From a virus: 32,465 bases of DNA. Location: the IMG/VR virus record IMGVR_UViG_3300017767_003284, positions 1 to 32,465 of that record; one strand, given 5' to 3'. Of the stretch, positions 3,637 through 31,332 are shown piece after piece (positions within the stretch are counted from its first letter, which is position 1; the number at the start of each line of letters is the position of its first letter). A program made the position numbers and the translations under genes. The notes beneath the pieces were generated by a model that searched no databases, was not told the DNA's origin, and was given only the letters and a program-made list of their open reading frames with translations.

Positions 3637-4249
3637 TTTTAACCTTTCTAAATTGAATTACTTTTTCTATGGCCTGCTGTGCTAACATATATATTGGTGT
3701 CAAGAATTTTTCTTCTTTCACATAGAAATATCCGCCAAAGCAGTGCTGAGATCTGTCTTCAAGGAAGTCTATTATGTTGTAGTTCGTTACTAAACAGTTG
3801 TACACATTCCTCTCCAAGAACTCCCATAGGCTTTTCTTCTGTGCGTCGGTCATGTACACCTGTGCATCTTTTTTTAAGTACACCTGGTATTGATATTTGC
3901 CATGTGGCAGTCTTGTACATCCTACAGTGTCCTTACCGAGATTCTTGAACCTCGGATCCACTGTCTCGGATCCAACCCAGAAATCCCAGAAACGTTCTAT
4001 CAGTTCCTGCGACTTGTCAAGATGCGAATAGAATATGGTTTTCCTGTCCTGCATACGAAACTTCAAATTTCTCCTGTTAGCAATTATAAAACTGGCTAGG
4101 TGGCATATATCTGGTGCATCTGCATATTCTTTCTTTAGATATAGTAGGTGCTCATCTGTGGTTGGATAAAACATTAGGCTACCAGGCAGTTTGAAGACTG
4201 TCTTGTGCCTATATCTGCCGTAGTATAATTTATTGTGATTTTTTCTCAT
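3608..4249 (-). CDS. Hypothetical protein (213 aa)
   Basis: No family recognised. The protein is very basic and aromatic-rich (MRKNHNKLYYGRYRHKTVFKL at the N-terminus, repeated Tyr/Phe/Trp), with no membrane segment. Its centre (LPHGKYQYQVYLKK) looks like a beta-hairpin, and the rest is helical. The basic N-terminus would allow nucleic-acid or membrane-surface binding, but nothing specific can be claimed. The start overlaps the clpA stop by 20 nt, so it is translated from the chaperone/protease transcript. Confidence 0.6.
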   Translation of the reverse strand: MRKNHNKLYYGRYRHKTVFKLPGSLMFYPTTDEHLLYLKKEYADAPDICHLASFIIANRRNLKFRMQDRKTIFYSHLDKSQELIERFWDFWVGSETVDPRFKNLGKDTVGCTRLPHGKYQYQVYLKKDAQVYMTDAQKKSLWEFLERNVYNCLVTNYNIIDFLEDRSQHCFGGYFYVKEEKFLTPIYMLAQQAIEKVIQFRKVKNGSNKKTTR

Positions 4250-6575
4250 CAGACATCTTAGGTTTGACCGGTTCTAGCACTTTTGGCTCTTTCTTTGCTT
4301 TGAAATTTACTGTTAGTTTTGGAACTATATCATCTGTAAGTCCAACTTCTACCATACCGCCTTTTGTAAGTTCACCGAACAACATCATCTTAGATAAGGG
4401 TTTCTTTATCTCATCATCTATTACACGTTGTAAAGGTCTGGCACCTAGTTTTGCATCAAATCCTTTTGTCATCAAGAACTCAATTGCCGTGTCTGTAGCA
4501 TTTACTTCTACATCTTTTTCAATGGTCATTGCATTTAACTCTTGCAAGAACTTCTTAACAACGGATTTCATTGTGTCTTTGCCTAATTTGTCAAACTTAA
4601 TTACTGCGTCTAGTCTGTTTCTAAACTCTGGAGGAAAGAACTTCTTAAGTGCTTTATCATCCTCACCTGTTCTCTCACTCTTTCCAAATCCTATATTGTT
4701 TCTTTCTTGCTCTTCTGCACCTAGGTTAGATGTCATTATTAGTGTAATGTTTCGACAGTCTGCTTTCTTACCATTTGATCCTGTGACTGTACCATAGTCC
4801 ATCACCTGTAGCAACATGTTCGATACATCTCTATGTGCTTTCTCTATCTCGTCGAACAATACGACTGCGTGTGGATTTTTTTCAACTTCGTTGATAAACA
4901 TACCACCACCCATATTGGAATCTTCATAGCCAACGTATCCCGGAGGCGATCCAATCAGTTTTGCAATAGAATGTTTCTCTTGATACTCCGACATGTCAAA
5001 TCTAATCAGTTCAACACCTAGTGTTTTTGCCAGTTGTTTTGCAGTCTCCGTCTTACCACAACCCGTTGGGCCTAGGAATAAGAACGATCCAACAGGTTTA
5101 GTCAAACTCTTAAGTCCCGCTCTGGCAACCAGGATCTTGTCTGTGATAGTGTTGATTGCTTTGTCCTGTCCATAAACTTGCAGTTTCATCTTCTCTTCGA
5201 GTGTTTTTAGATTACTAGCTTGTTTTTGCGACAACTGTTCAATGCTTATTCCTGTCATGACAGATATCTCATGTATTATTTCTTCGTGATCGATCTTGCC
5301 ATCCTTGACTCCATTCAGTCTCAGTCTTGCACAGGCAACGTCTATGACATCTATGGCCTTGTCTGGTAGTTTCTTGTCAGCGATAAATTTAGTTGAATAA
5401 TCTACTGCATCCTCACAGGCTTCGTCTGTTATTGTACAGTTATGGAACTTCTCATAATATTGTTTTACACCTTTAAGTATTTTTACTGCTGTTTCTTTTG
5501 AAGGTTCTCCAACTTGAAGTCTTTGGAATCTTCTCATCAATGCTCGATCCTTTTCAAAGTATTTCCTGTATTCTTCCCACGTGGTAGAAGCAAGTACTTT
5601 GATCGATCCTTTTAAGAGTGCAGGTTTAAGCATGTTAGCCATGTCCATGTTGTTGCCTTGGCCTGTTGCACCGGCACCAACTATCATGTGGGCTTCGTCT
5701 ATGAACAATATAGACTTGCCCTTTTGATCTAATGCATTAACAATTAGTTTCAATCTTTCTTCGAAGTCACCTCTGAATTTACTCCCTGCTATTAAACTGT
5801 TTACGTCCAGACTCCAAACAATATGGTCCTTGAGATATTCGGGCACATCATCTTTGTTTTTTGCAATTCTTCTAGCTAGGCCTTCTACAACTGCTGTTTT
5901 ACCAACACCAGGATCGCCTACAATAAGAACATTGTTTTTATTCCTTCTTGCGAGTATTTGTTTTAAATTTTCAGTTTCTTCTTTCCTACCTATGACTGGA
6001 TCTATTTTCTTATCAAAGTATTTCTGATTTAAATTTTCACAGTAGCTTTTTAGTATCCTGTCAGCTTGGTTAGGTCTAAGTTTCTGTTCGGGGCCTCCTG
6101 GTTGTGGTCCACCCATTGACGCCATTCCGTCATCTAATATAGTTTCTGTAGAAACTAAATCTATAAGATCTTGTTTGCTAACCTGATGTTTCTTTAAAAA
6201 GAATGCGGCATAACTTTTTTTCTCAGAAAATATTGATATTAGTATATCAACTGATGTAACATCTTGTCTACCCTGGAACAGTGCCTGAGTAAACGCTCTA
6301 TTCATTAATCTTTCAAGTGATGCTGTCTTCCTAGGAGTCATTGGTTCTTTTCCCTTTGCAATAATATCATTGCATTTTGTGTCAAGGTAATCTTCAACAT
6401 CTTTTATTAGAGCACCTACTTGTACTTTGAAATCATGTAGCACTGTGCCTATGGACTCGTCTTTAATAAGTGATAGCAATACGTGTTCGATTGTTACGTA
6501 TTCGTGTCTTCTCTTCTCGGCTTCCTTGACCGAATTTTCAAATATATTCTCTAGTCCTTCATTTGCTTCTAACAT
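4230..6575 (-). CDS. clpA: ClpA-like AAA+ unfoldase
   Basis: A full-length (781 aa) Hsp100 unfoldase of ClpA type. It has a Clp N-domain (about 1-145) and AAA module 1 with Walker A GDPGVGKT (220-227) and Walker B ILFIDEAH (289-296). AAA module 2 has Walker A GPTGCGKT (502-509), Walker B VVLFDEIE (571-578) and FRNR (651-654). It lacks the long coiled-coil middle domain of ClpB. The sequence NNIGFG (626-631) sits where ClpA/ClpX carry the IGL/IGF loop that docks on ClpP, so it probably feeds substrates to a protease. No ClpP gene is in the window, and host ClpP is the likely partner. The Shine-Dalgarno AAAGGATAG overlaps the stop codon of def. The C-terminal tail after about 760 is Lys/Pro-rich and appears phage-specific. 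Confidence 0.95.
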   Translation of the reverse strand: MLEANEGLENIFENSVKEAEKRRHEYVTIEHVLLSLIKDESIGTVLHDFKVQVGALIKDVEDYLDTKCNDIIAKGKEPMTPRKTASLERLMNRAFTQALFQGRQDVTSVDILISIFSEKKSYAAFFLKKHQVSKQDLIDLVSTETILDDGMASMGGPQPGGPEQKLRPNQADRILKSYCENLNQKYFDKKIDPVIGRKEETENLKQILARRNKNNVLIVGDPGVGKTAVVEGLARRIAKNKDDVPEYLKDHIVWSLDVNSLIAGSKFRGDFEERLKLIVNALDQKGKSILFIDEAHMIVGAGATGQGNNMDMANMLKPALLKGSIKVLASTTWEEYRKYFEKDRALMRRFQRLQVGEPSKETAVKILKGVKQYYEKFHNCTITDEACEDAVDYSTKFIADKKLPDKAIDVIDVACARLRLNGVKDGKIDHEEIIHEISVMTGISIEQLSQKQASNLKTLEEKMKLQVYGQDKAINTITDKILVARAGLKSLTKPVGSFLFLGPTGCGKTETAKQLAKTLGVELIRFDMSEYQEKHSIAKLIGSPPGYVGYEDSNMGGGMFINEVEKNPHAVVLFDEIEKAHRDVSNMLLQVMDYGTVTGSNGKKADCRNITLIMTSNLGAEEQERNNIGFGKSERTGEDDKALKKFFPPEFRNRLDAVIKFDKLGKDTMKSVVKKFLQELNAMTIEKDVEVNATDTAIEFLMTKGFDAKLGARPLQRVIDDEIKKPLSKMMLFGELTKGGMVEVGLTDDIVPKLTVNFKAKKEPKVLEPVKPKMSDEKKSQ

Positions 6576-6578: not shown

Positions 6579-7073
6579 CTATCCTTTGTTTGCCATGTCC
6601 CATCGCAGTTTAGAGACTCTTTTATTAAATGTAATACCGTCAAGGTGATCGAGTTCATGCTGGAAGCATTTTGACTCCATTCCGTCGAGTTTTGCGAATT
6701 TTGTTTTTCCTTGTGTTGTTTCATATTGCACTTCTATTTGTTTTGGTCTTTCAACTTTTACGAAGATGTCCTTAAAACTCAAACATCCTTCCACATCAAT
6801 AACCTTTTCTTTACTTGAATTTATCACATGTGGATTCCAAATTATAGCATGTTTTTGGAATGTGTCAAATGTTTCGTGACCTATAGCAAAAAATCTTTTG
6901 GTAATGCCTATCTGGTTTGCGGCCAACCCCATGCCACGTTCGTCTAGCATCAGTTTGACCATGTCGGCCTCGAACTTTTCGATGTCCTCGTAACCCACGA
7001 TGTTGTCATCCTTTGTCCATGGTGTGCTGGTTTGTAGGAGTGTTTCGTATGGATATTGGAATACTTGAATCAT
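6579..7073 (-). CDS. def: Peptide deformylase
   Basis: Removes the formyl group from the N-terminal Met of new proteins using a bound metal. All three family motifs are present: GMGLAANQIG (47-56, motif I), EGCLS (95-99, metal-binding Cys97) and QHELDHLDG (138-146, metal ligands His139 and His143, catalytic Glu140). The length of 164 aa is normal. Unlike many cyanophage deformylases, which are short at the C-terminus, this one keeps about 18 residues after the HExxH motif. The ATG at 7073 overlaps the dnaJ stop in ATGA fashion, and clpA follows after 3 nt, so it is tightly coupled in an early operon. Confidence 0.95.
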   Translation of the reverse strand: MIQVFQYPYETLLQTSTPWTKDDNIVGYEDIEKFEADMVKLMLDERGMGLAANQIGITKRFFAIGHETFDTFQKHAIIWNPHVINSSKEKVIDVEGCLSFKDIFVKVERPKQIEVQYETTQGKTKFAKLDGMESKCFQHELDHLDGITFNKRVSKLRWDMANKG

Positions 7074-7933
7074 AGATCCTTTATCTTCTTCAAGTCGGAG
7101 GCACTCAGTTGTGGAATCAAAACGTGTATCTTCACGTAAAGGTTACCACGTATGCCTATTGTCTTGTGCACCGGCATGCCTCTTCCTTGTACTTGTAATA
7201 TTGTGTTAGGTTGTGTTCCTGCAGGCACTTTCACTTTAATAATATTATTGTCTAGGGTCTTAAGATTGAAGTCCGCACCCCTCACAGCTTGGAAACAGTC
7301 TATTGTCTTGTCTGTGTATAAGTCGTTGCCCTTGCGTGTGTATCCATCTGAGTCTAACACACTCATGATAACCATAAGGTCTCCACGTGGCATGTTTTTT
7401 ATGGAGTCATCTCCCATTCCTGCATATTTAAATGTTACACCGTGTTGCACGCCTGCGGGCACTTTGACCGTGGCAAATTCTTCTCGACCTGATGGCAATT
7501 TATAGTTTATAGTTTTCTCATTGTTCATCATGGCTTCCTTGATGCTTAAAGCCATTCTAACCTGCACATTTTTGTTACCCTGTGGTTGGGATCTGAATGT
7601 ACGAGCTCGGCCTGGTCCTTGTGTAAAATTAAATCGTCCTCCGAAGTCCATGTCACCTTTTTGAAACCCAGAAAAGAAATCACCAAATACGTCTTCATTA
7701 AAAAAAGGGTGTTGTCCGCCTGTACCACTTGATCCAAACTTCCGCATGGTATCATAGTCATGACGCTTTTGTGAATCCTTCAAAGTTTCATGTGCTTCAT
7801 TAATTTCTTTGAATTTTGATTCGTCACCGCCCCTGTCAGGATGATACTTTTTTGCTAGATCTTTGAATGCTTTTGTAATGTCCGCACTGGTGCTTTGTTC
7901 ATTCACACCTAGCACGTTGTAATAATTCTTCAT
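7070..7933 (-). CDS. DnaJ/CbpA-type J-domain co-chaperone
   Basis: An Hsp40 that would stimulate host DnaK. The J domain (1-65) has the essential HPD at residues 31-33 and the KFKEINEAHETL helix. A Gly/Phe-rich linker (about 66-120) includes GGQHPFF and FGDFFSGFQKG. Two C-terminal substrate-binding beta-domains follow (for example VKVPAGVQHGVTFKYAGMGD and VKVPAGTQPNTILQVQGRGMP). The CxxCxGxG zinc repeats of DnaJ are absent, so it is the CbpA/type II form; 287 aa is close to CbpA size. The start at 7933 is fixed by the J-domain N-terminus. There is no Shine-Dalgarno sequence: the -10 box ends 7 nt upstream, so the mRNA should be leaderless. It heads the dnaJ-def-clpA transcript. Confidence 0.93.
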   Translation of the reverse strand: MKNYYNVLGVNEQSTSADITKAFKDLAKKYHPDRGGDESKFKEINEAHETLKDSQKRHDYDTMRKFGSSGTGGQHPFFNEDVFGDFFSGFQKGDMDFGGRFNFTQGPGRARTFRSQPQGNKNVQVRMALSIKEAMMNNEKTINYKLPSGREEFATVKVPAGVQHGVTFKYAGMGDDSIKNMPRGDLMVIMSVLDSDGYTRKGNDLYTDKTIDCFQAVRGADFNLKTLDNNIIKVKVPAGTQPNTILQVQGRGMPVHKTIGIRGNLYVKIHVLIPQLSASDLKKIKDL

Positions 7934-7978: not shown

Positions 7979-8299
7979 TTATTTTTTGATGTCTGTCTTC
8001 TTACCGTTAACGTAAAGTCCAAACCAGGCCGCACCCGCACCAACTACAACTGACACAAAACCTGCCTGTGCGTTGTTTGGATTTTCTAGCATCATGAACC
8101 ATTGCATTGTGTTGTAGAACACTATTCCGTACAATGCCATCATGATTCTTGGAACTGTTCTCCAGTTAGACAGAAATTGTGGAAGTTCGTCTCTCAAGAA
8201 TACCCAAATTATTTTGATTAGTGCCCAGCCGTCTTTGGCACCTTTCTTGACCATGTTGTCGTTTTTAATAATCAGTTTATCTTCTTTTAATTCAGCCAT
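7979..8299 (-). CDS. Small membrane protein, holin candidate (106 aa)
   Basis: The sequence shows two hydrophobic segments (about 52-68, IMMALYGIVFYNTMQWF, and about 80-96, FVSVVVGAGAAWFGLYV). They are flanked by a charged N-terminus and a short Lys-rich tail (NGKKTDIKK). Size, charged ends and a place in a lysis-like gene block fit a two-helix holin, which would form the membrane lesion that times lysis. Holins share little sequence, so this is inference from topology and neighbours. The start overlaps the stop of the DUF1353 gene by one base, so the two are translated together. Confidence 0.55.
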   Translation of the reverse strand: MAELKEDKLIIKNDNMVKKGAKDGWALIKIIWVFLRDELPQFLSNWRTVPRIMMALYGIVFYNTMQWFMMLENPNNAQAGFVSVVVGAGAAWFGLYVNGKKTDIKK

Positions 8300-8889
8300 T
8301 ATTTTATACCCGGGATTTTAGCGTTTCTTTTTCTGTGACCATTCCATGCAACAAAGCCACCTATTCTCAATGACCAATATGCAAGTCTGTTCATTGTGTA
8401 GAATCCATTGACGATAATGTTGATGTCTCTGAAAATCTCATCTGCTCTTTTCTGCGTTATTTCACCCATTGTGTCTTTTTTGTTTTTCTTCAAAAGTGTT
8501 TTGTACTTGTAGGCATAGTCATGAACCAGGCCACCTACTAGAAGAACACCAACTGGCGAGAAGAAAGTTCTCAGGAACTTAGGAATACTTGCACCATCAA
8601 ATTGGAAACCCGCTGGTATCACATACTCTGTGCCGTCTATGTTGTATTTCCAGTCTTCTGTTAATATCCAGTTCCTTGTGGAAAGCAACCACATCACAAT
8701 ACCTTTCCAAAACCCTTTGCCTTTTGTTTTGATAGGAACAGGTTGCAAGGTTGGCATTCCTTTGTAATAGAATTTTAATTTTGTTTTTGCCCTTTTGTCT
8801 GTGAAATTTATGATCGCGGCAATTATTACGACAGCGATTAACACTGTCCACTGCCAAAATTTCATTGCTAATGTAATTAATAGTTCCAT
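8299..8889 (-). CDS. DUF1353 protein with N-terminal membrane helix
   Basis: Residues about 10-28 form a membrane helix (WTVLIAVVIIAAIINF). The soluble part carries the DUF1353 signature: LTEDWKY (76-82), IPAGFQFDGASIP (91-103) and LVHDYAYKYK (121-130). Members are found in phages and often lie near lysis or tail genes. The conserved Asp, Ser, His and Asp suggest a hydrolase-like active site, but no reaction is established to my knowledge. A GAGGAG Shine-Dalgarno sequence lies upstream of the ATG at 8889. A late element lies 26 nt upstream, so unlike several neighbours it has a normal leader. Confidence 0.8.
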   Translation of the reverse strand: MELLITLAMKFWQWTVLIAVVIIAAIINFTDKRAKTKLKFYYKGMPTLQPVPIKTKGKGFWKGIVMWLLSTRNWILTEDWKYNIDGTEYVIPAGFQFDGASIPKFLRTFFSPVGVLLVGGLVHDYAYKYKTLLKKNKKDTMGEITQKRADEIFRDINIIVNGFYTMNRLAYWSLRIGGFVAWNGHRKRNAKIPGIK

Positions 8890-8915: not shown

Positions 8916-8923
8916 TATTTATT
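8916..8923 (-). promoter_or_regulatory. T4-type late promoter element, AATAAATA
   Basis: AATAAATA (extended GAATAAATACGC) on the minus strand, 26 nt before the ATG at 8889, overlaps the stop codon of the upstream nuclease gene. The intervening leader contains a GAGGAG Shine-Dalgarno sequence. Confidence 0.65.
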
Positions 8924-9353
8924 CTATTGCCCCTTTGACCACACCTTCAGCTACAAGTTTCTTCCTGTTCTTCATGTGTTGTTTCTGCGTGTCCGCTTTT
9001 GCTCCCCCGAAGTATGGTACTGCGTGTCCTGTTTTGCACATGATTTCAGTCACTTGTTTGCCCTCTATAAGGAAGTCACCTAGTACTCTACCGAACTTGC
9101 CCTTCATGTCTTCACCTTTTTTACTGATTGTTGTTTGCAATACAGGGTTAGGTCCTAGCAGTGATTTCAGTTTGGCTTTTGCGGCTAATCCAAATTTCTT
9201 TTCAATTTTGTCTCTTGTTCTCGATTCCGGTGTGTCTATGCCCATAATCCTCACACGTTCATTCATCTGCCATATGCCAAATCCTAGATCTATGTCTACA
9301 TCAACTGTGTCTCCGTCTACCACTCTCCTCAGTTTACATCTATATGTCCACAT
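8919..9353 (-). CDS. Staphylococcal-nuclease-like (thermonuclease) endonuclease
   Basis: A Ca2+-dependent phosphodiesterase fold (SNase/TNase). Visible catalytic elements are VVDGDTVDVD (11-20), VRIMGIDTPES (34-44, providing Arg35, Asp40 and Glu43 equivalents) and GKFGRVLGDF (85-94, Arg89 equivalent to SNase Arg87). The C-terminal helix segment (MKNRKKLVAEGVVKG) also fits. There is no signal peptide, so it would act in the cytoplasm, perhaps on host or competing nucleic acid. The start overlaps the stop of the acyl-carrier-like gene by one base. It sits within the late lysis block, an unusual place for a DNA-degrading enzyme meant for early host takeover. Confidence 0.9.
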   Translation of the reverse strand: MWTYRCKLRRVVDGDTVDVDIDLGFGIWQMNERVRIMGIDTPESRTRDKIEKKFGLAAKAKLKSLLGPNPVLQTTISKKGEDMKGKFGRVLGDFLIEGKQVTEIMCKTGHAVPYFGGAKADTQKQHMKNRKKLVAEGVVKGAIE

Positions 9354-9571
9354 TATTTTTTCTCTACTAGGTTTATTAAATCTTGAACAGTCTGGACTTT
9401 GTCACCGTCGTCCTCTGATATTTTGACACCAGTTGCTTTTTCAACTTGTATGCATAATTCGATTGTGTCAAATGGATCTGCACCTAAGTCATCTACTAGG
9501 TGTGCTGTAGGTACTACTTTGCCTGTTGCTACATCTAGGTGTTCTGCTATAACTTTGATTACTGTCTGCAT
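9353..9571 (-). CDS. Acyl carrier protein homologue lacking the phosphopantetheine serine
   Basis: At 72 aa it aligns by eye along its length with bacterial AcpP: HLVDDLGAD at 24-32 matches FVEDLGAD, and TIELCIQVEKATGVKISED and VQTVQDLINLV match the later helices. The carrier serine of the DSL motif is absent. The codons read GAT CCA TTT GAC, so Asp-Ser-Leu-Asp has become Asp-Pro-Phe-Asp (32-35). It therefore cannot carry a 4'-phosphopantetheine at the usual place. It may still bind ACP partners such as acyltransferases, SpoT-like enzymes or MukB. The gene is packed between a small membrane protein and the SNase homologue. Confidence 0.88.
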   Translation of the reverse strand: MQTVIKVIAEHLDVATGKVVPTAHLVDDLGADPFDTIELCIQVEKATGVKISEDDGDKVQTVQDLINLVEKK

Positions 9572-9572: not shown

Positions 9573-9782
9573 CTATTTCAATATAATTGCTTTGATTGAC
9601 TTCTGGCCCATGTATATCTCTGTTTCGGCTTGGCCTTTCCAACATTGATATTTCACACTGGCACTGTATTGTCTCTCTGCCTGTCTTTTACCTCGCAGGC
9701 ACTTTGCCATGTTTTCTTGTATTCTGTGTTCCTTGATCTCACCATTCACAAACATCAATAATGCAACAACTGATTCTATCAT
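9573..9782 (-). CDS. Small conserved-type phage protein (69 aa)
   Basis: It begins with a short hydrophobic stretch (MIESVVALLMFVNG) and then a basic, charged body (EIKEHRIQENMAKCLRGKRQAERQYS). Small proteins of this appearance occur beside lysis genes in other marine phages as I remember them, but no function is known to me. The ATG lies in a TAATG junction with the stop of the upstream membrane coiled-coil gene, so translation is coupled. The N-terminal segment is too short for a confident membrane call. Confidence 0.65.
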   Translation of the reverse strand: MIESVVALLMFVNGEIKEHRIQENMAKCLRGKRQAERQYSASVKYQCWKGQAETEIYMGQKSIKAIILK

Positions 9783-10228
9783 TAATGACCCTCCCCGTTA
9801 CCGTTTTTATAAACTATTTCTCTGTCAGCGTCTTTCAAATCTTCAATATGTTTCTGAGCCTTTTCCATTTGTTTTGATAAGAACTCAATGTTAATTTTAT
9901 TGTTAGCCATGCTGTCTAGATGCTGTTGCATTCTGTCCACTGTTTTATAAAGATCCTCTATCAACATGAATTGTTCAATGTCCTGTGAACTTTGCCCCAA
10001 CTCACCTCTTGGATATTTGATCCTAAATTCTGTGTTCTGTTTGACTTCGTTGTGTAATCTTTCGTCCTCAGCACTCATGTCTTTCTCAATCAAGACTGTA
10101 TTTGTTTCTAACTTGTTCAGTCTTTCGATCACACCAAAGTATGCCCAAACTCCAACCGCTACTGCGGCCACAATGGACAACAGATTCCGCATAGGCATTG
10201 AAATTGATGTTGAATCACTAATTTTCAT
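9782..10228 (-). CDS. Membrane-anchored coiled-coil protein (148 aa)
   Basis: One membrane helix near the N-terminus (about 15-33, LLSIVAAVAVGVWAYFGVI) is followed by a long, charged, heptad-like region (RLNKLETNTVLIEKDMSAED and EQFMLIEDLYKTVDRMQQHL). The topology is N-in with a periplasmic coiled coil. This resembles the anchored proteins found next to endolysin and spanin genes in marine phages and could be part of the envelope-disruption module, but no enzyme motif is present. An AATAAATA late element ends 8 nt before the ATG and no Shine-Dalgarno sequence is seen. Confidence 0.7.
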   Translation of the reverse strand: MKISDSTSISMPMRNLLSIVAAVAVGVWAYFGVIERLNKLETNTVLIEKDMSAEDERLHNEVKQNTEFRIKYPRGELGQSSQDIEQFMLIEDLYKTVDRMQQHLDSMANNKINIEFLSKQMEKAQKHIEDLKDADREIVYKNGNGEGH

Positions 10229-10236: not shown

Positions 10237-10244
10237 TATTTATT
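10237..10244 (-). promoter_or_regulatory. T4-type late promoter element, AATAAATA
   Basis: AATAAATAC on the minus strand ends 8 nt before the ATG at 10228 and overlaps the stop codon of the upstream gene. The predicted leader is 2-3 nt. Confidence 0.65.
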
Positions 10245-10635
10245 TGGAATTACCAGAGTCTTCGTAGTACTTCTTGTATTCTTCGAGCAGGTTGTTGGTT
10301 TCCTGCAGTTTTTGCCTGATCTGTGCAAAGTTTCTGGCCAGCACCTGGAAGTCCTTGTCAGTGATTCCAAACAATACGGGATCTATGCCTGCCTCTTCTA
10401 GTTTTTTGAAAACCTCATCTGCATTCTCCGAAGTGATTATTATCCACTTGATCTCTTCCATCTGCAATGGAGTTGGCATAGGATAGTCTAATTTCTTTCT
10501 AGGCTCCTCGACTGAGAATATCTTTATCTTCTTTTCGCCACCTATACTACATTCTGATAATAGCATACACACCATCAGTGGTACTGCTACTATCCATGAT
10601 AGTCTATAAGTTTTATCTTTATTGGAATGGTACAT
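10240..10635 (-). CDS. Possible outer spanin or spanin partner (131 aa)
   Basis: An N-terminal hydrophobic segment (about 13-27, SWIVAVPLMVCMLLS) ends in SEC at residues 27-29, like a lipoprotein signal except that Glu at -1 is not typical of a lipobox. The mature part is charged, with a Pro-containing stretch (KKLDYPMPTPLQM) and a C-terminal coiled coil (ARNFAQIRQKLQETNNLLEE). The gene starts inside the 3' end of the Rz-like gene (17 nt overlap), an arrangement reminiscent of Rz/Rz1 pairs. That position and the signal make an outer-membrane spanin plausible. It is larger than lambda Rz1 and may instead be another envelope protein. Confidence 0.5.
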   Translation of the reverse strand: MYHSNKDKTYRLSWIVAVPLMVCMLLSECSIGGEKKIKIFSVEEPRKKLDYPMPTPLQMEEIKWIIITSENADEVFKKLEEAGIDPVLFGITDKDFQVLARNFAQIRQKLQETNNLLEEYKKYYEDSGNSK

Positions 10636-11092
10636 AGTTTGGATTCGCTAGTGCCGGGCACTCTGGGTTGATTTGTGATTTCAATGTTGCTTTTAATTCT
10701 TCTTCTGTGTGTTCGGCACCTGATGCCAATTCGATACACCTTGCGGCGTTCTTGCCACCCTTGTTTACAATTCTTTCAATTGATTTTGTTCTTTGTAACG
10801 CCAGTTTGCCAATGTCTCTGTTTTTCTTTGTGAATCTCTTGTCTAGATCATCGAGGTCTTTTTTGAAAGTTCCGATCAACACATTAAGTTTCTTGTTGCT
10901 TTCCATTATTGCTTCAAAGTCTGCCTTCTGTTGCTCTAACACTTTATTTTGTTCTTCAACCGCTGTTTCAAGTTTTAGTTGGTTCGCCTTCAGCGTGGCG
11001 TTGTCCGCACGTAATTTCATCACGTACATACCCGCACCGGCTATTCCTGTGATAAGCATTATGGCTATTGCCATCTTTATTGTTGAAAACAT
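10619..11092 (-). CDS. Rz-like inner-membrane spanin
   Basis: A membrane helix at about 6-25 (KMAIAIMLITGIAGAGMYVM) is followed by a long coiled coil (about 30-90, LKLETAVEEQNKVLEQQKAD). The C-terminal part IERIVNKGGKNAARCIELAS and then NPECPALANPNY matches the pattern of Rz-like proteins of marine phages as I know them. Rz spanins sit in the inner membrane and fuse it to the outer membrane in the last step of lysis, which implies a Gram-negative host. The next gene starts inside its 3' end. A late element ends 8 nt before the ATG, with no Shine-Dalgarno sequence. Confidence 0.75.
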   Translation of the reverse strand: MFSTIKMAIAIMLITGIAGAGMYVMKLRADNATLKANQLKLETAVEEQNKVLEQQKADFEAIMESNKKLNVLIGTFKKDLDDLDKRFTKKNRDIGKLALQRTKSIERIVNKGGKNAARCIELASGAEHTEEELKATLKSQINPECPALANPNYVPFQ

Positions 11093-11100: not shown

Positions 11101-11108
11101 TATTTATT
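11101..11108 (-). promoter_or_regulatory. T4-type late promoter element, AATAAATA
   Basis: AATAAATACG on the minus strand ends 8 nt before the ATG at 11092. It overlaps the 3' end of the endolysin gene, so the spanin can be transcribed separately. Confidence 0.65.
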
Positions 11109-11568
11109 GGATAAGACCAGGCTTGTAAACAGTTTTACCGTTTTCTTTCATTGCAGTCAATACACTCTTACGATTACCTTCCGACTTGTACGATACGTGT
11201 ACCCATCCTGAATCAGGTATGCCTGGAGTGTAAAATTCTAATATCAGCTGATCGAAGTCACAGTTGTCTTCGATCCATTTGGCAACATCATAATTTCCCG
11301 TGCCTGGACACTCTATGTCCACCGCCTCACCTTTGCAATGTTGTGATTTGCTCGAACCACCTACAGCTTCATTCAAAGCCGGGCCTCTGTATCCTGAGTT
11401 GATTACAGTCACACCAAAGTTGTCTCTGACCTTCTGCACCACATTTTCAAAAAGCTCTTTTGCATTGGCTAGATGTTCTTCACCCGGGGTATTGTCTAGG
11501 CCTTTCCTAGTTGCGGTTTGGCTCTTGGTAAATTCAGCTAAGGTAAAATTGTTTGATAAACGTGTCAT
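11104..11568 (-). CDS. Peptidase M15-type endolysin (zinc D-Ala-D-Ala/endopeptidase)
   Basis: A 154-aa M15 (DUF882/VanY-like) peptidase that would cleave peptide cross-links of the cell wall at lysis. The zinc motif SKSQHCKGEAVDIE holds His77 and Asp84, and the third ligand is His124 in GWVHVSY. DQLILEF (106-112) is the usual catalytic-acid region, and NSGYRGPALNEAVGG (57-71) is the family's substrate-loop signature. There is no signal peptide or cell-wall-binding domain, so a holin is needed for export. It lies next to the Rz-like gene and has its own late element 8 nt before the ATG, with no Shine-Dalgarno sequence. Confidence 0.92.
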   Translation of the reverse strand: MTRLSNNFTLAEFTKSQTATRKGLDNTPGEEHLANAKELFENVVQKVRDNFGVTVINSGYRGPALNEAVGGSSKSQHCKGEAVDIECPGTGNYDVAKWIEDNCDFDQLILEFYTPGIPDSGWVHVSYKSEGNRKSVLTAMKENGKTVYKPGLIQ

Positions 11569-11592: not shown

Positions 11593-12177
11593 CTATAACT
11601 TCATGTTAATATTCCTGCAATCGGGATATTCTACCATGTGAGGAAGGTGACTGTCTCTTTTTTTATACTCTTCTAATAGTCTGTTGCATTGTTCTGCATG
11701 TTCGTAGGGCATGTTATAGTGGAATCCTAATCTATATTCTGTCTGGTCGATCCATCTTTTGAACTTTTTATCTCGTCCATCATGGCTCATCTTTTTCAAT
11801 ACTGAATACTCTTTCTTTGTGCCACACAGTATAGCACCACCACGTTTGTTGTCCACCGGTTTTCCGTTACCAAAACTTAAACACTGCAATTGACCTTTCC
11901 TGTACATCTTAGGGTGTAGCAACCTGGCACTGTCCCAGATTCTTGAACCGTGTAATTGGTATTCACCCAACCAATGCTCCTCTTTTAGTTTGTACTTGAT
12001 GCCAAGTTTCAAAAAGGTCATGGGGACACTTAGATAGGTGTAACATGTACTGGTTAGTTTTTTTATGTTGTCGTGTCTAAGACACAGCTCGATAGCGTGT
12101 GTGCAACAATCGGTAGCGACCACAAAGGGTGCTCCGGTGAATTCTGCCAAATTTTTTTCGAATTTTTCTACTACCAT
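11593..12177 (-). CDS. Short DegT/DnrJ/EryC1/StrS-type aminotransferase homologue
   Basis: Resembles the PLP-dependent sugar aminotransferase family but has only 194 aa against about 370. The small N-terminal strand-helix TGAPFVVATDCCTHAIELCL matches the cofactor-phosphate region. WDSARLLHPK (81-90) carries the PLP-ring Asp82. LQCLSFGNGKPVDNKRGGAI (97-116) corresponds to the SFxxxK...GGA region with candidate Schiff-base Lys106. The C-terminal small domain is essentially absent, and the protein ends soon after YRLGFHYNMPYEHA. The reading frame is intact, so it may be a reduced working enzyme, a sugar-binding relic or half of a split protein. It overlaps the preceding gene by 7 nt and belongs to the X-W-V late transcript from about 13.4 kb. 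Confidence 0.75.
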   Translation of the reverse strand: MVVEKFEKNLAEFTGAPFVVATDCCTHAIELCLRHDNIKKLTSTCYTYLSVPMTFLKLGIKYKLKEEHWLGEYQLHGSRIWDSARLLHPKMYRKGQLQCLSFGNGKPVDNKRGGAILCGTKKEYSVLKKMSHDGRDKKFKRWIDQTEYRLGFHYNMPYEHAEQCNRLLEEYKKRDSHLPHMVEYPDCRNINMKL

Positions 12178-16173: not shown

Positions 16174-17214
16174 TTATACAGCTTTTTCTTTGTACTGTCT
16201 ATATAATTGTTCTGTGGCCATGTTTTTACCTTTGGCCTCGACCTGTATATCAAAGTATTCAGAGAACGACAATGCCCAATCATTTACCTTTCTATTTGGT
16301 AATAAGTCACTATGTGCTCTAAGTTTCTGTTTTTTGCAACCACGTGCAAGTAGATCCTTAATGTTGTGCATCTCAGTGTGTGTTTTGTCTCCTAGTTCTG
16401 CCACTGCGAGATGTTCGTCCCTCGAATAGGAGTAATGCATACTTGGCCTCTGTCCTCGCCAACTGTCGATAACACGTTTTACCCTGTCATCAGTAGCTTC
16501 AATGTATTCCTCATCTCTGATCCAGTGGTGATGTATGTCTAGCACCAGTGCTAGATCCTTTTCAAGTTCTAGACTCTTCTCAAGTCCATGTCCCATCTCA
16601 TCGTTCTCGATTGTAATCAAGTTTCGAGCTTCTTGGGATAGTCGTGGAAGTGCCTTACGTATGCCATCTGGTCCCTGTCGTCCTGAGATGTGTACGTTAA
16701 TCTTGCAACCATCTTGGAACGATTTGCCAAATCCCATCCAACGAGCCATGTCAGCATGATATTCAAATTCTTCAATACTACGTTCTACTATTTCTGGAGT
16801 GTCACTTGACAGGACACAAAATTGTCCAGGATGGAAACTTACTTTGACATCTAAACTTCTTGCCATCTCACCAACAGGTGCAAATAAATTTGCCAAGTGG
16901 CTCTGTAACTCTGGTCTTTGCCACCAAGACTTCCAATCTTTCTCTGTGTATCCTTGTAGCATTTCACTACCAAGTCTGACCATCCTGCGTTCAGGTGGGA
17001 GAGATCCTACACGTTGCACCAATCTACGTGCGGCAAGTGTATTGTGAGTCATGATATCCCACTGTCGTTGTTCGGCCTCGTCCTTGTGTTCTCGTAGCCA
17101 ACGCATAGTGGTTGATCTTCCGTTGAGCTCTCGGTCTTTAGCGTTAACTTTCATGCCACCAAATTCGCTAGTGTCATTTAGCCATTTGCAACAGAAACCA
17201 AAACGTTGTATCAT
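16174..17214 (-). CDS. uvsE: UV damage endonuclease
   Basis: Nicks DNA 5' to UV photoproducts and other lesions, starting excision repair. It is a TIM-barrel enzyme with three metals. Family residues are seen in order: FHPGQFCVLSS (127-137), INVHISG (172-178), TIENDE (201-206), LDIHHHW (225-231), RAHSD (299-303) and EAKGK (326-330). The length of 346 aa is usual. The start MIQRFGFCCK is fixed by the first barrel strand. Its sigma70 promoter leaves only 6 nt between the -10 box and the ATG, so the message should be leaderless. It heads a transcript running through small genes, gp44 and the oxygenase-like gene. Carriage fits a sunlit surface-water lifestyle. Confidence 0.93.
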   Translation of the reverse strand: MIQRFGFCCKWLNDTSEFGGMKVNAKDRELNGRSTTMRWLREHKDEAEQRQWDIMTHNTLAARRLVQRVGSLPPERRMVRLGSEMLQGYTEKDWKSWWQRPELQSHLANLFAPVGEMARSLDVKVSFHPGQFCVLSSDTPEIVERSIEEFEYHADMARWMGFGKSFQDGCKINVHISGRQGPDGIRKALPRLSQEARNLITIENDEMGHGLEKSLELEKDLALVLDIHHHWIRDEEYIEATDDRVKRVIDSWRGQRPSMHYSYSRDEHLAVAELGDKTHTEMHNIKDLLARGCKKQKLRAHSDLLPNRKVNDWALSFSEYFDIQVEAKGKNMATEQLYRQYKEKAV

Positions 17215-17638: not shown

Positions 17639-17867
17639 ATTCGATATAATTTATGTCGTTTATTATTTGCCATTCTGGACCCTTAGGAAGTGGTCTTCTT
17701 TGTGGATAGTCATTTACATCTGATATTTCCCTGTATTTGTTTGCACAGGCAGGCCCACAAAAGGGTCTAATAATTCGTTTATCGTATTTGGTATCATGCA
17801 AACTATCATACCAGTAAATTGCGTTTGTGAAAGTTTTCTTACAGACGTAACAAGTGTGGTTAATCAT
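17625..17867 (-). CDS. Small zinc-finger protein (80 aa)
   Basis: Cys6-X2-Cys9 and Cys37-X3-Cys41 (TCYVC and FCGPAC) can bind one zinc ion, as in treble-clef/FYVE-like small fingers. The stretch between them (WYDSLHDTKYDKRIIRP) is basic and aromatic. The C-terminal part is acidic. It lies between the gp31-like and ParB-like genes with short overlaps on both sides. A nucleic-acid or protein-binding adaptor role is likely from the fold only. Confidence 0.65.
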   Translation of the reverse strand: MINHTCYVCKKTFTNAIYWYDSLHDTKYDKRIIRPFCGPACANKYREISDVNDYPQRRPLPKGPEWQIINDINYIEYESD

Positions 17868-18327
17868 TACCCGGAAGTTTTGTCATCTGTTGGGCTCCAC
17901 CCATGTTGATGTATCCGGCCTTGTGTCTGTTGAAGTCAGGCTCTTCGTCTGATACTAGAAGTATATCGTTTTCGTCTATCATTCTCACTTCCATTTCGAT
18001 ACCTATGTCGTCCCCGTTAGAACCTTTTTCTTTCCGTTTAAGTTTGAATGCTCTCGACCATCTACCATGTGCGACAAGCACCCATTGGCCTATCTCGACA
18101 TCATCCTGCAGTTTACCCACAGCGTATACCTTGCCCCATCTAGGGTGGATACCTTCTGCAGTACCATCGTCATCAACCAGTATGATTCCACCTTTGGATT
18201 TGGTCTCTCCAAAGTGCATGTCGGATACTAGTACTCTCTTTTTAAGGGGGGTGATATCATTCTCGACAGTGTATTGTTTTCCACCATCTGATCCAAAGCC
18301 TTTTGCCTGTGCTGATTGTATGTCCAT
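17860..18327 (-). CDS. GroES-like co-chaperonin (T4 gp31 analogue)
   Basis: The core ITPLKKRVLVSDMHFGETKS (25-44) and KGGIILVDDD (45-54) aligns with GroES, including the mobile loop ETKSxGGIxL that touches GroEL. WGKVYAVGKLQDDVEIGQWV (64-83) and DENDILLV (118-125) match the later strands. At 155 aa it is longer than GroES (97 aa), with a longer roof region (about 95-112) and a tail after 128. T4 gp31 replaces host GroES so that GroEL can fold the large capsid protein, and the same role is likely here. It is first in an early operon with zinc-finger and ParB-like genes. The start is 9 nt after the -10 box. Confidence 0.8.
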   Translation of the reverse strand: MDIQSAQAKGFGSDGGKQYTVENDITPLKKRVLVSDMHFGETKSKGGIILVDDDGTAEGIHPRWGKVYAVGKLQDDVEIGQWVLVAHGRWSRAFKLKRKEKGSNGDDIGIEMEVRMIDENDILLVSDEEPDFNRHKAGYINMGGAQQMTKLPGND

Positions 18328-18763: not shown

Positions 18764-19285
18764 TCATCTTAGAAATTCGGTGATGTCTAAATTGTACAGC
18801 AAAGGATTTATCTTGTGTACCCCTATCAAAAATAAACAGAAACTGGCCACACTTGATCCTCGACCTACACCCCATACAATGTTGTTAGCTCTTAGTGTGT
18901 CTACAAAATAAATTAAAAACTGTAGCACCTGTATAAATTTTTTCTTCTCAAACAGGTCATACTCCATCTGTACTCTAAGTTTTTCTTCGTCGTTTTGACA
19001 TTTGTCTAATAACCATTGCAACACATTAATTTGGTAATACTTCTCAGGCATGTGCCACCTGTCGCAATTTTCTTTGTCAAATTCACTAATGGCTGGTCTT
19101 TGTGGCACTGTGTTTACCACTGGCAAGTCTATGCCAAGCTCTTTCAAACTGTCAGTGTACTTTGTGATGTCGCTGAAATATAATTTTGTTATATCAAAAT
19201 CTGGATCTGTGTATAGCAAGTCGATGACATCCTCTTCCGAGAATATCACGTCACCGTGATCATTTATCTTTGTCTTTACCGCCAT
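18764..19285 (-). CDS. DnaE-type GRGS fragment protein (173 aa)
   Basis: The last about 35 residues, VWGVGRGSSVASFCLFLIGV then HKINPLLYNLDITEFLR, closely match the GRGSAAGSLVAY...ITDIDPLxYxLxFERFL segment of bacterial DNA polymerase III alpha (DnaE), including GRGS at 141-144. The protein stops just before the catalytic PDxD motif. The first 130 residues, with WHMPEKYYQINVLQWLLDKC, have no match that I know. It is therefore not a polymerase but may mimic or bind part of one. I recall similar proteins in other T4-like marine phages. It overlaps the preceding gene by 26 nt. Confidence 0.7.
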   Translation of the reverse strand: MAVKTKINDHGDVIFSEEDVIDLLYTDPDFDITKLYFSDITKYTDSLKELGIDLPVVNTVPQRPAISEFDKENCDRWHMPEKYYQINVLQWLLDKCQNDEEKLRVQMEYDLFEKKKFIQVLQFLIYFVDTLRANNIVWGVGRGSSVASFCLFLIGVHKINPLLYNLDITEFLR

Positions 19286-19895
19286 CTAAAACCTTTGGTT
19301 GGAACTCAAATATTTTAGCATGATACTCGTGCTGTTTGTCAACAGGAATCTCGTTATTGTTCCAACTGAAGTGTCCTGTGTAGATGCCTTTGTCAAGTTC
19401 TTGATCATATGTTGCCGTGTCTGCCCTCAACCACCATGGATCGAATTTACTGAACTTCGCTGAAAACCAATCGGGTCTATCTAACAGTATAAGCTCTTTG
19501 CTGTCTTTGTCAACCGAATAGGTAATACCATCACCTTGCCATGAGGATAATTCGACGTAATTGATAACAATCTTGCTGTCCAGTATAGCATTTGCTTTGC
19601 AAAAACACACCGCGGCCATTATTTGATCATATGGAGGCTTTGGTAATTCAATAAATCTGTTTGTGGTGCTTTTCTTTAATGTTGTGTAGAGAGGTTCATC
19701 CCTCCACGTGGTTATCGTGTTGGCGAAGACCTGTTCGAATAAGTTCTTAAGCCTCTCGAAATATTCCGTTTGTTCTTTAAGACTGGCTGTGTGTGGAGTC
19801 AATGATATGTTCAGTTTGTATTCATTTGCAAACAGTTCACCGTCCACTATTATGATTGATCTGAATTTTGTCTTCCAGGTAAATGTGTTTGACAT
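19260..19895 (-). CDS. Hypothetical protein (211 aa)
   Basis: Function unknown. Soluble, mixed alpha/beta, with Trp-rich patches (WRDEPLY, ELSSWQGDG, RPDWFSAKFSKFDPWWLRAD) and a charged tail (LDGGKDKDK). The ATG at 19895 is used rather than the TTG just before it. AGTAAATA (19902-19909), one base from the late consensus, ends 6 nt before the ATG and may be a weak late promoter. The DnaE-fragment gene starts inside its 3' end. Confidence 0.6.
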   Translation of the reverse strand: MSNTFTWKTKFRSIIIVDGELFANEYKLNISLTPHTASLKEQTEYFERLKNLFEQVFANTITTWRDEPLYTTLKKSTTNRFIELPKPPYDQIMAAVCFCKANAILDSKIVINYVELSSWQGDGITYSVDKDSKELILLDRPDWFSAKFSKFDPWWLRADTATYDQELDKGIYTGHFSWNNNEIPVDKQHEYHAKIFEFQPKVLDGGKDKDK

Positions 19896-19901
19896 CAAAA
19901 C

Positions 19902-23577: not shown

Positions 23578-25461
23578 TTAACTTACTGCCGCAGTAAATG
23601 GTGTTGCTGGGTTGGCACCTGCCGCTACCCTCATTACACCTCTTACATGATATTGGTTGGTAGCTATATCTATCAGCTCAAGATAATCACCAATAATACC
23701 ACCTGTAGTTCCACCGTTAAGTGTTATTGTATCTGAAGCCGCCACTGTTGGGAAGGCCGATACTGCTGTGCCGTCTTCATCTAGATACAACATGATACCG
23801 TCAATAGTGTCTGTTGCATCTGCAACCTGTATCTTATAGTTTGATGTATTCGTCACACTTACGATGAATTTATAAACTGCACCTGTACCGGTAGCCGCTG
23901 GTAGCGTCAAAGTCACCGCCGCGTTTCCACCAACTTCACCAAGTAATAAAGTTCTGCCGGCGTGTTCAGCTATTGTTATTGCGTCGGTTGCCGTGAATGT
24001 ATGTATGGCTGGTAGGAATGATCCTGTTAATGTAAGTTGTGTGTCTTCAATTTTTACTACACCTGTACCCTGCGTTGTAATATCTATGTCGGCGTTGGAT
24101 GTATCACTTGATATGAAATTCGCCCTTACAGTTGTGGCCTCCATCAATGTAAAGTTGGCCTCGCCTGCAGTTAAGTTCACGTTAGTTCCTGTTACTGCAA
24201 CGTTCTGACCAGCCGCCGGTGTTAGTGTAATACCACCCGATGTTGCTGATAATACGTTTCCGTCTAATCTTAAATTGTCAACATTTAATTGTCCTGTTGT
24301 CGTCTGTGTTCCTGTTGCTGTGATCGGTCCAGTCAAAACAATAGCACCAGTTCCAGCTGGGTCAATTACTATGTCACCATTTGTGTCTGATGTTATTGAA
24401 CCGTCAGCAATGATGTTTAAGTCACCTACTGCAAAAGTTCCTGTTGTCAAAGAACCAGAAATTGTGGTGTTACCTGTTGTGGCAACATCCGCTGTGTTTG
24501 TTGTTCCTTGAACAGTTAAATTTCCATCAACATTTACTGCGTCGTTAATGTTTACTATTGTTGAGTCCGTAGCACTTATTGTTGTTCCATTAAATGTCAA
24601 TCCAGTGGCCACTACAGAACCTGTGCCAGCCGGAGCAATTACAATGTCACCATTAGTGTCAGACGTGATTGTACCGTCAGCTAATATGTTTAAGTCACCT
24701 ATGCCAACAGCTCCAGCGATATTTACAGCGCCATTCAATGTAGCTGTGCCAGATGCTGTGATTGCCGCAACCGTTGTTGTTCCACTTATGTCGCAAGTAC
24801 CATTTATGTCTATGGCTGTTGCAGTTAAGTCGATCTCATCAGTTGCACCAAGTCCTAAAACTGTTGCACTAATACCTTGAATGAACTGAGATGCATCATT
24901 GAAACAAAGTTTGTTTGTTGAATTTAAAGTCAAACCAGTTCCGTCTGTGTGTGTTAAACTTGTATCTGAATCTGCACCAAAAGTGATTACTGCACTGTCA
25001 GAGCTTAGGGCAATGTCATCTGAGAAAGTTGCATCGGCACTGAATACTGGAGTTGCTGTAAATGTAGCAACACCTGTGACTCCTAACGTTCCAGCCACTG
25101 TTGCGTTTCCTGAAACACTCGCTGTGCCGTCAACCACTAAACCTTCGTTAATGTTGATTGTGCTTGAATCGTCTGAGCTTAAAGTTGTTCCTGCAATCCT
25201 TATCGCTGATGCAATTACTCCGCCTGTGCCAGATGGTAACAAAATGATGTCCTCGTTTGATCTTGCTGATGTGATTCTTCTTCCGTTAACATCAAGATCA
25301 CCACCTAACTGTGGAGTTGAATCTTCAATTAAATCGTTGGCTTCTGCTGTGGAGCCATACAACTCCGTAAAGTTGTCGTTAATTTTGTCAAATGCTGTTC
25401 GTAATGGATCACCTGTGCCGTCGTTAGCCGCCGATCCTATGTTTATACTTTGTTGTGCCAT
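23578..25461 (-). CDS. Fibre-like structural protein with beta-helix-type repeats (627 aa)
   Basis: The N-terminal module INIGSAANDGTGDPLRTAFD (6-25) and KINDNFTELY (26-35) is shared with three neighbours and probably attaches the fibre to the virion. A second shared module (SNEDIILLPSGTG, residues 68-80, and GTTLSSDDSSTININEGLVV, 91-110) follows. The shaft is Gly/Thr/Ala-rich and includes two near-identical blocks GDLNI-ADG-ITSDTNGDIVI (about 255-284 and 346-375). The C-terminal domain (about 480-627) differs from its paralogues and may determine binding. The likely role is a tail or neck fibre. A late element and an AAGGGG Shine-Dalgarno sequence precede the ATG. Confidence 0.85.
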   Translation of the reverse strand: MAQQSINIGSAANDGTGDPLRTAFDKINDNFTELYGSTAEANDLIEDSTPQLGGDLDVNGRRITSARSNEDIILLPSGTGGVIASAIRIAGTTLSSDDSSTININEGLVVDGTASVSGNATVAGTLGVTGVATFTATPVFSADATFSDDIALSSDSAVITFGADSDTSLTHTDGTGLTLNSTNKLCFNDASQFIQGISATVLGLGATDEIDLTATAIDINGTCDISGTTTVAAITASGTATLNGAVNIAGAVGIGDLNILADGTITSDTNGDIVIAPAGTGSVVATGLTFNGTTISATDSTIVNINDAVNVDGNLTVQGTTNTADVATTGNTTISGSLTTGTFAVGDLNIIADGSITSDTNGDIVIDPAGTGAIVLTGPITATGTQTTTGQLNVDNLRLDGNVLSATSGGITLTPAAGQNVAVTGTNVNLTAGEANFTLMEATTVRANFISSDTSNADIDITTQGTGVVKIEDTQLTLTGSFLPAIHTFTATDAITIAEHAGRTLLLGEVGGNAAVTLTLPAATGTGAVYKFIVSVTNTSNYKIQVADATDTIDGIMLYLDEDGTAVSAFPTVAASDTITLNGGTTGGIIGDYLELIDIATNQYHVRGVMRVAAGANPATPFTAAVS

Positions 25462-25469
25462 GTGTTATT

Positions 25470-25492
25470 CCCCTTGTACGTGATTATTTATC
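25470..25492 (-). promoter_or_regulatory. Late promoter element (GATAAATA) plus Shine-Dalgarno
   Basis: GATAAATA lies at 25485-25492, with AAGGGG nearer the ATG at 25461. It separates this fibre gene from the one upstream. Confidence 0.6.
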
Positions 25493-25518
25493 AGCAACTC
25501 TAAGAACCTAATGTAAAA

Positions 25519-27303
25519 CTATAGGTCAAATGTAATTCTTTGAAATTTAAATACACAGCTATCGTTCGATGTGTTAGTCACTAGGAGCCTTGCGTTTCCA
25601 CCGCTAACGTCTGCTGTGAATACAGTGAGCGGACCTGTGTGATCGGTGGTTGATCCAAAAGCAGTAACATAGGCATCTGATCCATCGTGCGTCACGTTGG
25701 CTTCAACAACTTCGAACCTGCTGTTGGTTGAGTCGGTGATGGAAATAAAATATTTGGCACTCCTAAATGTATCAACAGCGAATGTGTTCAATACAGTTGT
25801 AGTTGATGTGGCCACTGTGGTAGTCGCATCTACTAGGTCTGAATGGTTCAGTGTTGCCCCGGCAGTTGCAAATGATAGAGTACCTGATCCGTCCGTTTTT
25901 AAGAATTGGTTGCTAGTTCCATCCGACGTTGGGAAAGTGAAACCACTAATTGTAACTCCACCAGAACCGTTACCTGACAGTTCGAGGTTTGCGTTTGAAG
26001 AATTGGTCTTGACTGTGTTGTCGTCTATTGTTATTCCTTCCAAGGTCAACGCTTGAGTAACCGTAAGCGTAGTGAAAGTACCAGCGGCGGCAGTTGATCC
26101 ACCAATTACTGTGCCATCGATTGCTCCACTGTTTATGTCAGCCTTTGCTATAACAACTGATCCTGTACCTGAAGGAGATAGGATCAAGTCCGAGTTCGAT
26201 GCTGTGGCTTTGATATGGTTGTCCGTGATATTGATGTTGTCATCTATGGTTAGACTGTTGACTATTACTGCTCCAGTTCCTCCCGGAGTAAGACGTATGT
26301 CAGCGTTAGAACTTGAAGATATTATATTATCATTGAAACTTAGATTGTCTACAGTGACACCACCACTGGTGAATGTCATTGCGCCTGTGACGGTCAATGC
26401 TCCCAGTGTGGATAGTCCACTTACGTTTAATGTTCCTGTTGTGGTAAGGTTTTCATTGCCAAAACTAATAGCACCCGATGAGTCAGTAATAGATGCACCT
26501 CCTAAAGTCAAAGTGCCAGTGGTTAAAGTTCCAGACGTGCTTAAATTTTCATCACCAAAACTTATTGCGCCGGAAGAGTCAGTGATTGATCCATTTGCCA
26601 AAGTCAGGTTACCTATTGTTGAGCCTGTCCCCGCAGTCATTGTTCCGGTTGTGCTTAGATTCTCATTGCCAAAACTAATAGCACCTGATGAGTCTGTGAT
26701 CGATCCATCTGCCAGCGTGAGGTTACCAAATGTGGAACCTGATGCCGCGGTCATTGTGCCTGTGGTTGTTAGATTTTCGTTACCAAAACTGATGGCACCT
26801 GATGAGTCTGTAATTGAACCATTGGCGAGTGTAAGGTTACCGATTGTGGTTCCTGATCCTGCCGAAATGGCACCTGAAAATGTTGTTGCCCCAGACACTG
26901 AGAATGTACCGTCAACTATCAGTCCTTCATTGATGTTGATGCTAGTAGAGTCCGTCGAACTTAATGTGGTTCCCGCTATCTGTATGGCGCCAAACACAAC
27001 TGATCCTGTGCCAGACGGCACTAGGTTTATGTCTTCATTTGACCTTAAGCCTTCTATGTTGTTGCCGTTGATCCTTAACGCAGGAAATTGGACAGCACCC
27101 GAACCTGCAGGTTTGAATATTATGTCGTCGTTGGTACGTGTTGCTCTGATCTCATTGCCAGTGACTTGGATTGTGGTTAGATCAAATCCCGCTGATCCAT
27201 AAACTTCGGTGAAGTTGGTGTTCACCTTGATCATTGCGTCTCGTAACGTGTCTCCCGTTCCGTCGTTTGCTTGGTCTCCTACATTTAGAACTAATCTTGA
27301 CAT
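25519..27303 (-). CDS. Fibre-like structural protein with 38-aa repeats (594 aa)
   Basis: It shares the N-terminal module (LNVGDQANDGTGDTLRDAMI, residues 6-25, and KVNTNFTEVY) and the SNEDINLVPSGTG module with its neighbours. Residues 162-292 hold four tandem units with core GSITDSSGAISFGNENL; the first two are exactly 38 aa long and the others shorter. The C-terminal about 90 residues (FRSAKYFISITD, THDGSDAYV, FTADVSGGNARL) are the same domain that occurs five times in the next fibre gene upstream. The likely role is a virion fibre. It starts one base after the stop of that gene and has no late element of its own. Confidence 0.85.
   Translation of the reverse strand: MSRLVLNVGDQANDGTGDTLRDAMIKVNTNFTEVYGSAGFDLTTIQVTGNEIRATRTNDDIIFKPAGSGAVQFPALRINGNNIEGLRSNEDINLVPSGTGSVVFGAIQIAGTTLSSTDSTSININEGLIVDGTFSVSGATTFSGAISAGSGTTIGNLTLANGSITDSSGAISFGNENLTTTGTMTAASGSTFGNLTLADGSITDSSGAISFGNENLSTTGTMTAGTGSTIGNLTLANGSITDSSGAISFGDENLSTSGTLTTGTLTLGGASITDSSGAISFGNENLTTTGTLNVSGLSTLGALTVTGAMTFTSGGVTVDNLSFNDNIISSSSNADIRLTPGGTGAVIVNSLTIDDNINITDNHIKATASNSDLILSPSGTGSVVIAKADINSGAIDGTVIGGSTAAAGTFTTLTVTQALTLEGITIDDNTVKTNSSNANLELSGNGSGGVTISGFTFPTSDGTSNQFLKTDGSGTLSFATAGATLNHSDLVDATTTVATSTTTVLNTFAVDTFRSAKYFISITDSTNSRFEVVEANVTHDGSDAYVTAFGSTTDHTGPLTVFTADVSGGNARLLVTNTSNDSCVFKFQRITFDL
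26428..26820 (-). repeat. In-frame tandem repeats, about 114 bp units
   Basis: Four units encode the SITDSSGAISFGxENL core. The first three begin at residues 162, 200 and 238 and the fourth at about 270 of the 594-aa fibre. The unit is also found in the 1336-aa fibre. Confidence 0.85.
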
Positions 27304-27304
27304 A

Positions 27305-31315: not shown

Positions 31316-31324
31316 ATCAACTAA

Positions 31325-31332
31325 TATTTAGT
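31325..31332 (-). promoter_or_regulatory. Weak late promoter candidate, ACTAAATA
   Basis: ACTAAATA on the minus strand lies 9 nt before the ATG at 31315. It is two bases from the local consensus. Confidence 0.3.

Follow-up and report, generated by a model that had tools for sequence, protein, structure and literature searches.

Few bacterial proteins are as abundant or as highly connected as acyl carrier protein (ACP), and a standing question is which ACP functions depend on the prosthetic group. The ATPase of MukB is stimulated equally well by apo-ACP and holo-ACP (PMC8602292), and phages encode ACPs of their own: P-HM1 and P-HM2 also encode an ACP synthase (PMC3037559), and LC-MS/MS revealed an ACP in particles of an Erwinia jumbo phage group (PMC7760394). 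Our literature search on phage-encoded or serine-less ACPs found nothing direct.

Here, we analysed a viral DNA fragment of 32,465 nt (hereafter the window; IMG/VR record IMGVR_UViG_3300017767_003284, positions 1 to 32,465), in which an ACP with its essential serine replaced by proline had been predicted. The minus-strand ORF of this gene (Table 1) translates as MQTVIKVIAEHLDVATGKVVPTAHLVDDLGADPFDTIELCIQVEKATGVKISEDDGDKVQTVQDLINLVEKK. It matched the PP-binding profile PF00550 (E 1.5e-8, 35.2 bits against a curated cut-off of 20.8), and among the PHROG families it hit phrog_5934, an acyl carrier family, with E 5.5e-12. Against the NCBIfam ACP models, TIGR00517 and NF002148 among them, the window protein scored 62.8 (cut-off 70.45) and 69.5 (cut-off 71), and the whole phage family described below fell under every such cut-off, which a SAR11 ACP used as a control passed (107 and 115). 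Its carrier motif reads GAD-P-F-D-T-I-E-L, with Pro in place of the DSL serine that receives 4'-phosphopantetheine. The predicted replacement was thus borne out by profiles, fold model and codon.

Table 1. Coordinates of the ACP-like gene, its features and its neighbours in the window.
Feature	Position	Strand	Basis
Carrier-dead acyl carrier protein-like gene, 72 aa	9353..9571	-	ORF and translation, PF00550, phrog_5934, ACP fold model
Carrier-position codon CCA, Pro33 (Ser36 of E. coli ACP)	9473..9475	-	Direct sequence reading; alignments of 24 and 39 relatives
Helix II, residues 33-47; N-terminal half F34-D35-x-x-E38 conserved, C-terminal half altered	9431..9475	-	DSSP of model, canonical ACP comparison
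Nuclease gene, phrog_452 endonuclease; ATG overlaps ACP stop codon by one base	8919..9353	-	
Small gene upstream of ACP, phrog_24646, function not assigned	9573..9782	-	
phrog_20984, function not assigned	9782..10228	-	
o-spanin-like gene, phrog_812, Rz-like spanin	10240..10635	-	
i-spanin gene, phrog_739	10619..11092	-	
Endolysin, phrog_894	11104..11568	-	

The clamp loader encoded in the window is nearest to those of PA5oct-like jumbo phages (53%), indicating that the window phage is a T4-like or jumbo myophage. Several other genes were noted along the window. A protein-quality set (4230-6575, 6579-7073, 7070-7933 and 17860-18327, minus strand) comprises a ClpA-like ATPase and a J-domain protein, both assigned by sequence reading, a peptide deformylase (PF01327) and a GroES-like co-chaperonin (PF00166). 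The UV damage endonuclease UvdE lies at 16174-17214 (minus strand; PF03851, E 3e-31). A stand-alone piece of 173 aa, whose match to the bacterial DNA polymerase III alpha NTPase domain (PF07733, E 7e-11) is confined to the N-terminal part, adjoins a 212-aa gene without assigned function (18764-19285 and 19260-19898, minus strand); it may be a split DnaE-like protein. Four large, apparently paralogous repeat proteins of 627, 594, 1336 and 311 aa occupy 23578-32297 (minus strand) and share a similar N-terminal head, for example INIGSAANDGTGDPLRTAFDKINDNF; these are probably tail fibres that arose by duplication.

The structure of the window ACP was modelled with AlphaFold2 from an alignment of 34 sequences. 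The result was a confident four-helix ACP fold (pLDDT 92.6), as the original prediction had expected, and the best-matching solved structures were ACPs, with TM scores of about 0.9 and sequence identities of about 34-41%. DSSP assigned Pro33 as the first residue of helix II. Proline, glutamate, aspartate, serine and alanine are ordinary residues at the first position of a helix, so serine is maybe just one of several states tolerated there. The helix II surface itself proved to be only partly canonical. In E. coli numbering, D35, D38 and E41 were kept in all 39 aligned sequences, L37 was replaced by F in all 39, M44 had become I or V, E48/E49 were mostly lost (to K/A and others) and D56 was relaxed; in the window protein, EEEF of the second half of the helix, the part that fatty-acid enzymes use, reads EKAT and Met44 is Ile. 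The expectation of a preserved acidic helix II therefore stands for D35, D38 and E41 and fails for M44, E48 and E49. D35 and D38 might have been retained to maintain the fold or to bind a metal, and not for docking. When M44I was introduced into E. coli ACP, binding to FabZ, FabA, PlsX and MukB became undetectable, and growth was still supported (PMC3340395). Given this effect and the altered C-terminal half of helix II, the phage protein is unlikely to be a general decoy of fatty-acid enzymes.

Relatives were gathered by four relative scans of viral contigs and two pattern scans in which the carrier residue was left free, and an extra scan with the spanin as query added two more members. The family comprises 61 marine phage contigs in three groups, the window included, all of them metagenomic fragments. 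Group 1 (20 contigs, the window among them) mostly has P at the carrier site; two of its contigs have A and four have S. In group 2, whose 16 contigs encode proteins sharing about 55-60% identity with that of the window, the residue is D, E, N, P, V or I, and S does not occur. Group 3 (25 contigs, about 61% identical) always has D or E. Serine is thus present in 4 of the 61 contigs and absent from 57, so that homologues within the family do not mostly keep it, although more distant phage ACPs do. All four serine-bearing relatives use the codon TCA, which fits the single TCA to CCA step that had been proposed. The ORF is unbroken in every member. One relative in group 1 (L108) comes from a Pelagibacter MAG; the GC content of the phage is 40%, which is above expectation for SAR11, and a binning error is therefore possible for that contig.

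ACPs without serine were also found outside the three groups, in L299 (E), in L292 and L294 (D), in L107 (E; 138.9-kb contig, about 8001-8144, IDELD) and in L159 (D; 8119-8397, ADDLD). The L107 and L159 phage ACPs are possible independent losses of serine.

We then asked how the carrier site varies among otherwise similar proteins. In an alignment of 24 unique sequences from groups 1 and 2, no column had a higher entropy than that of the carrier residue (2.47 bits, 8 residues), and it was still at the top once group 3 was added (2.52 bits, 39 unique sequences); the residues seen were P, D, E, S, V, N, I and A. D32, F34, D35, E38 and about ten other positions were invariant. On a codon tree built without the carrier codon, whose deep branches are weak because the protein is short, the carrier site underwent at least 9 residue changes, against 6 in the next-highest column and a mean of 1.6 per column. 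Median pairwise dN/dS values of 0.077 (group 1) and 0.225 (group 2) indicate strong purifying selection on the gene. Canonical ACPs hardly vary in this column: in a control pattern scan that left the carrier residue unconstrained, 70 of 71 phage ACPs having Leu after the site carried Ser, compared with 4 of the first 59 family contigs (Fisher p ~1e-30, uncorrected for kinship). A hypervariable site amid invariant neighbours, low dN/dS and control ACPs that keep their serine together point to a maintained family of carrier-dead ACPs. DPF did not turn out to be a fixed or selected state, since six other non-serine residues occupy the same column.

These data also bear on simpler accounts of the substitution. 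Proline or another non-serine residue occurs there in related contigs from many metagenomes, and a sequencing error or one-off mutation was therefore rejected; gene decay was rejected on the basis of dN/dS values of about 0.07-0.2 and intact ORFs. If the family instead consisted of working carriers under relaxed constraint, the serine forms would be active and the others decaying. The four TCA-bearing members, which could in principle be modified, and the serine in more distant phage ACPs speak for this. However, the serine-less members are under strong purifying selection elsewhere in the protein, with invariant neighbours and unbroken ORFs, and groups 2 and 3 lack serine as whole clades, which makes a relaxed carrier very improbable. 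We also considered whether the four serine-bearing members avoid modification through a changed neighbour, since all four have G30D or T36K/I. This idea was dropped as weakened, because a proline-bearing member has N at G30 and T36 is also variable in group 3.

An unusual carrier with its cargo attached at another residue would account for the retained fold and acidic face, but no invariant nucleophile lies near the site. The alignment of 39 sequences contains no alternative invariant Ser or Cys, and its sole invariant Thr (T61) is on helix IV. Some sequences have I or K at T36, and some members of group 2 have P where others have S52. We regard this explanation as the least credible of all. 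Serine loss, a free carrier site and constraint elsewhere lead instead to the conclusion that the protein has been retained for binding and not for carrying, as the original prediction had proposed; we hold this with high confidence. The decoy or scaffold role directed at lipid enzymes that the prediction also suggested is conjectural.

The genomic neighbourhood was compared among the groups. The window gene was predicted to lie in the late lysis block, and this agrees with the gene order, which runs endolysin, i-spanin, o-spanin, phrog_20984, phrog_24646, ACP and nuclease. The window ACP gene follows the spanin genes, at about 0.7 kb past the o-spanin gene, and is not directly upstream of the i-spanin gene. 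By comparison, each of the 25 group-3 contigs, and likewise L299, has the ACP immediately 5' of an i-spanin homologue; the two genes typically overlap by 1 or 8 bases. Two side observations concern this region: a truncated DegT/DnrJ/EryC1 aminotransferase homologue of 194 aa (11593-12177, minus strand; profile positions 26-77 of 360) lies beside the lysis genes of the window, and a small protein (about 46-65 aa) with a CQNCGR cysteine motif is encoded between endolysin and spanin in many spanin loci of these marine phages (for example L251, 7874-8017).

The group-3 arrangement, the same order of ACP and then spanins in Serratia BF, GAP32 and Erwinia SNUABM_12, and the shared block in the window would suit a lysis-timing factor that works with the phage membrane lysis proteins, or a gene kept for translational coupling to the spanin gene. 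Yet no ACP was found in 57 of the 80 nearest spanin loci (within the available sequence of each locus), and group 2 is located away from the lysis genes. ACP is moreover cytoplasmic, whereas the working part of the spanins is periplasmic. We therefore consider a role in lysis timing rather unlikely, but a serious alternative.

In the 16 contigs of group 2, the ACP gene sits between a gp14-like virion protein gene and the tail sheath stabiliser gene, and in several of these contigs it overlaps each neighbour by one base. Two contigs have the ACP gene after tail-tube genes. These positions, together with the particle-associated Erwinia ACP cited above, could mean that the protein is a virion or assembly part, either an ACP fold reused as a small tail or neck adaptor or a protein that is packaged and injected. 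Against this, the neighbourhood differs by group (lysis cassette, neck-tail, tail tube and others), and the particle-associated ACP is of another type that keeps its serine. Relatives without the gene were also found at both places examined, which would be odd for a structural component: besides the spanin loci, the region between the neck and tail genes of cultured jumbo relatives, corresponding to the group-2 position, contains no ACP. A virion role is unlikely on this evidence, although it deserves some weight. A dedicated partner gene next door was rejected, because the neighbours differ among groups and nearby relatives lack the ACP. Varying neighbourhoods and relatives without the gene indicate that the ACP is an accessory gene inserted at various late loci, and for a removable insert of this kind an accessory, host-directed function fits better than a structural one. 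Neither a holo-ACP synthase (PF01648) nor a second ACP was found in 18 phage contigs, the longest of 204 kb and fragments included.

Taken together, an accessory gene, shifting late positions and the failure to find a synthase or a second ACP are best fitted by a host-directed ACP mimic. The attachment serine has been freed from constraint, and the acidic face around the site (D32, D35 and E38) has been kept. Because the attachment serine is lost, no phosphopantetheine or acyl chain could be held at the usual site, and a protein that does not carry would act through protein-protein binding. The gene is an accessory gene of marine T4-like and jumbo phages inserted in late clusters (lysis or tail), and the protein would be made late in infection. 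It would occupy the site at which a host protein docks ACP, in competition with host ACP; candidate targets include enzymes of lipid or envelope synthesis, the holo-ACP synthase and regulators. We put the probability of this full statement, a permanently apo, late-made, host-directed mimic that occupies the ACP-docking site of a host protein, at roughly 45%. Somewhat more tentatively, the family may represent a widespread class of permanently apo ACP mimics by which marine phages seize or block an ACP-dependent host process late in infection, a type of host takeover undescribed in the literature searched.

With its prosthetic-group site freed and its docking face frozen, this natural family separates binding from carrying, and its members are ready-made probes for ACP-binding proteins. 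It may also expose where the envelope or lipid network is vulnerable to ocean phages. The findings also call for caution with "acyl carrier protein" labels in surveys of phage auxiliary metabolic genes, which can mislead on function.

Compared with known systems, the phage family protein resembles bacterial AcpP (PF00550, TIGR00517) in its four-helix fold, its length and the DDLGAD-x-x-D-x-x-E core, and differs in that the attachment serine is missing, Leu37 is an invariant Phe, and Met44, Glu48 and Glu49 are replaced. Like phrog_5934 and the serine-bearing phage ACPs of Bajun, Harreka_1, ctuI7215 and P-HM1, it is small and phage-encoded, and the GADSFDTIEL motif of ctuI7215 is close to that of the window; unlike the window protein, all of these phage ACPs keep their serine. 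P-HM1-type phages pair an ACP with their own synthase, whereas the window ACP has no serine and no PF01648 gene accompanied the family in the contigs searched. The RaK2-like jumbo phages (Serratia BF, GAP32 and Erwinia SNUABM_12) share with group 3 an ACP directly 5' of the i-spanin and o-spanin genes, but their ACPs are unrelated to the family: they keep the serine (LDSLD), are longer and have low sequence identity to it. It is an ACP of this type that was reported among virion proteins (PMC7760394). The adjacency of ACP and spanin genes thus recurs across distant jumbo phages. The pairing of E. coli ACP with MukB is alike in that apo-ACP works there as a protein partner, independently of phosphopantetheine; E. 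coli ACP, however, is also a carrier, whereas the phage family has lost the carrier site.
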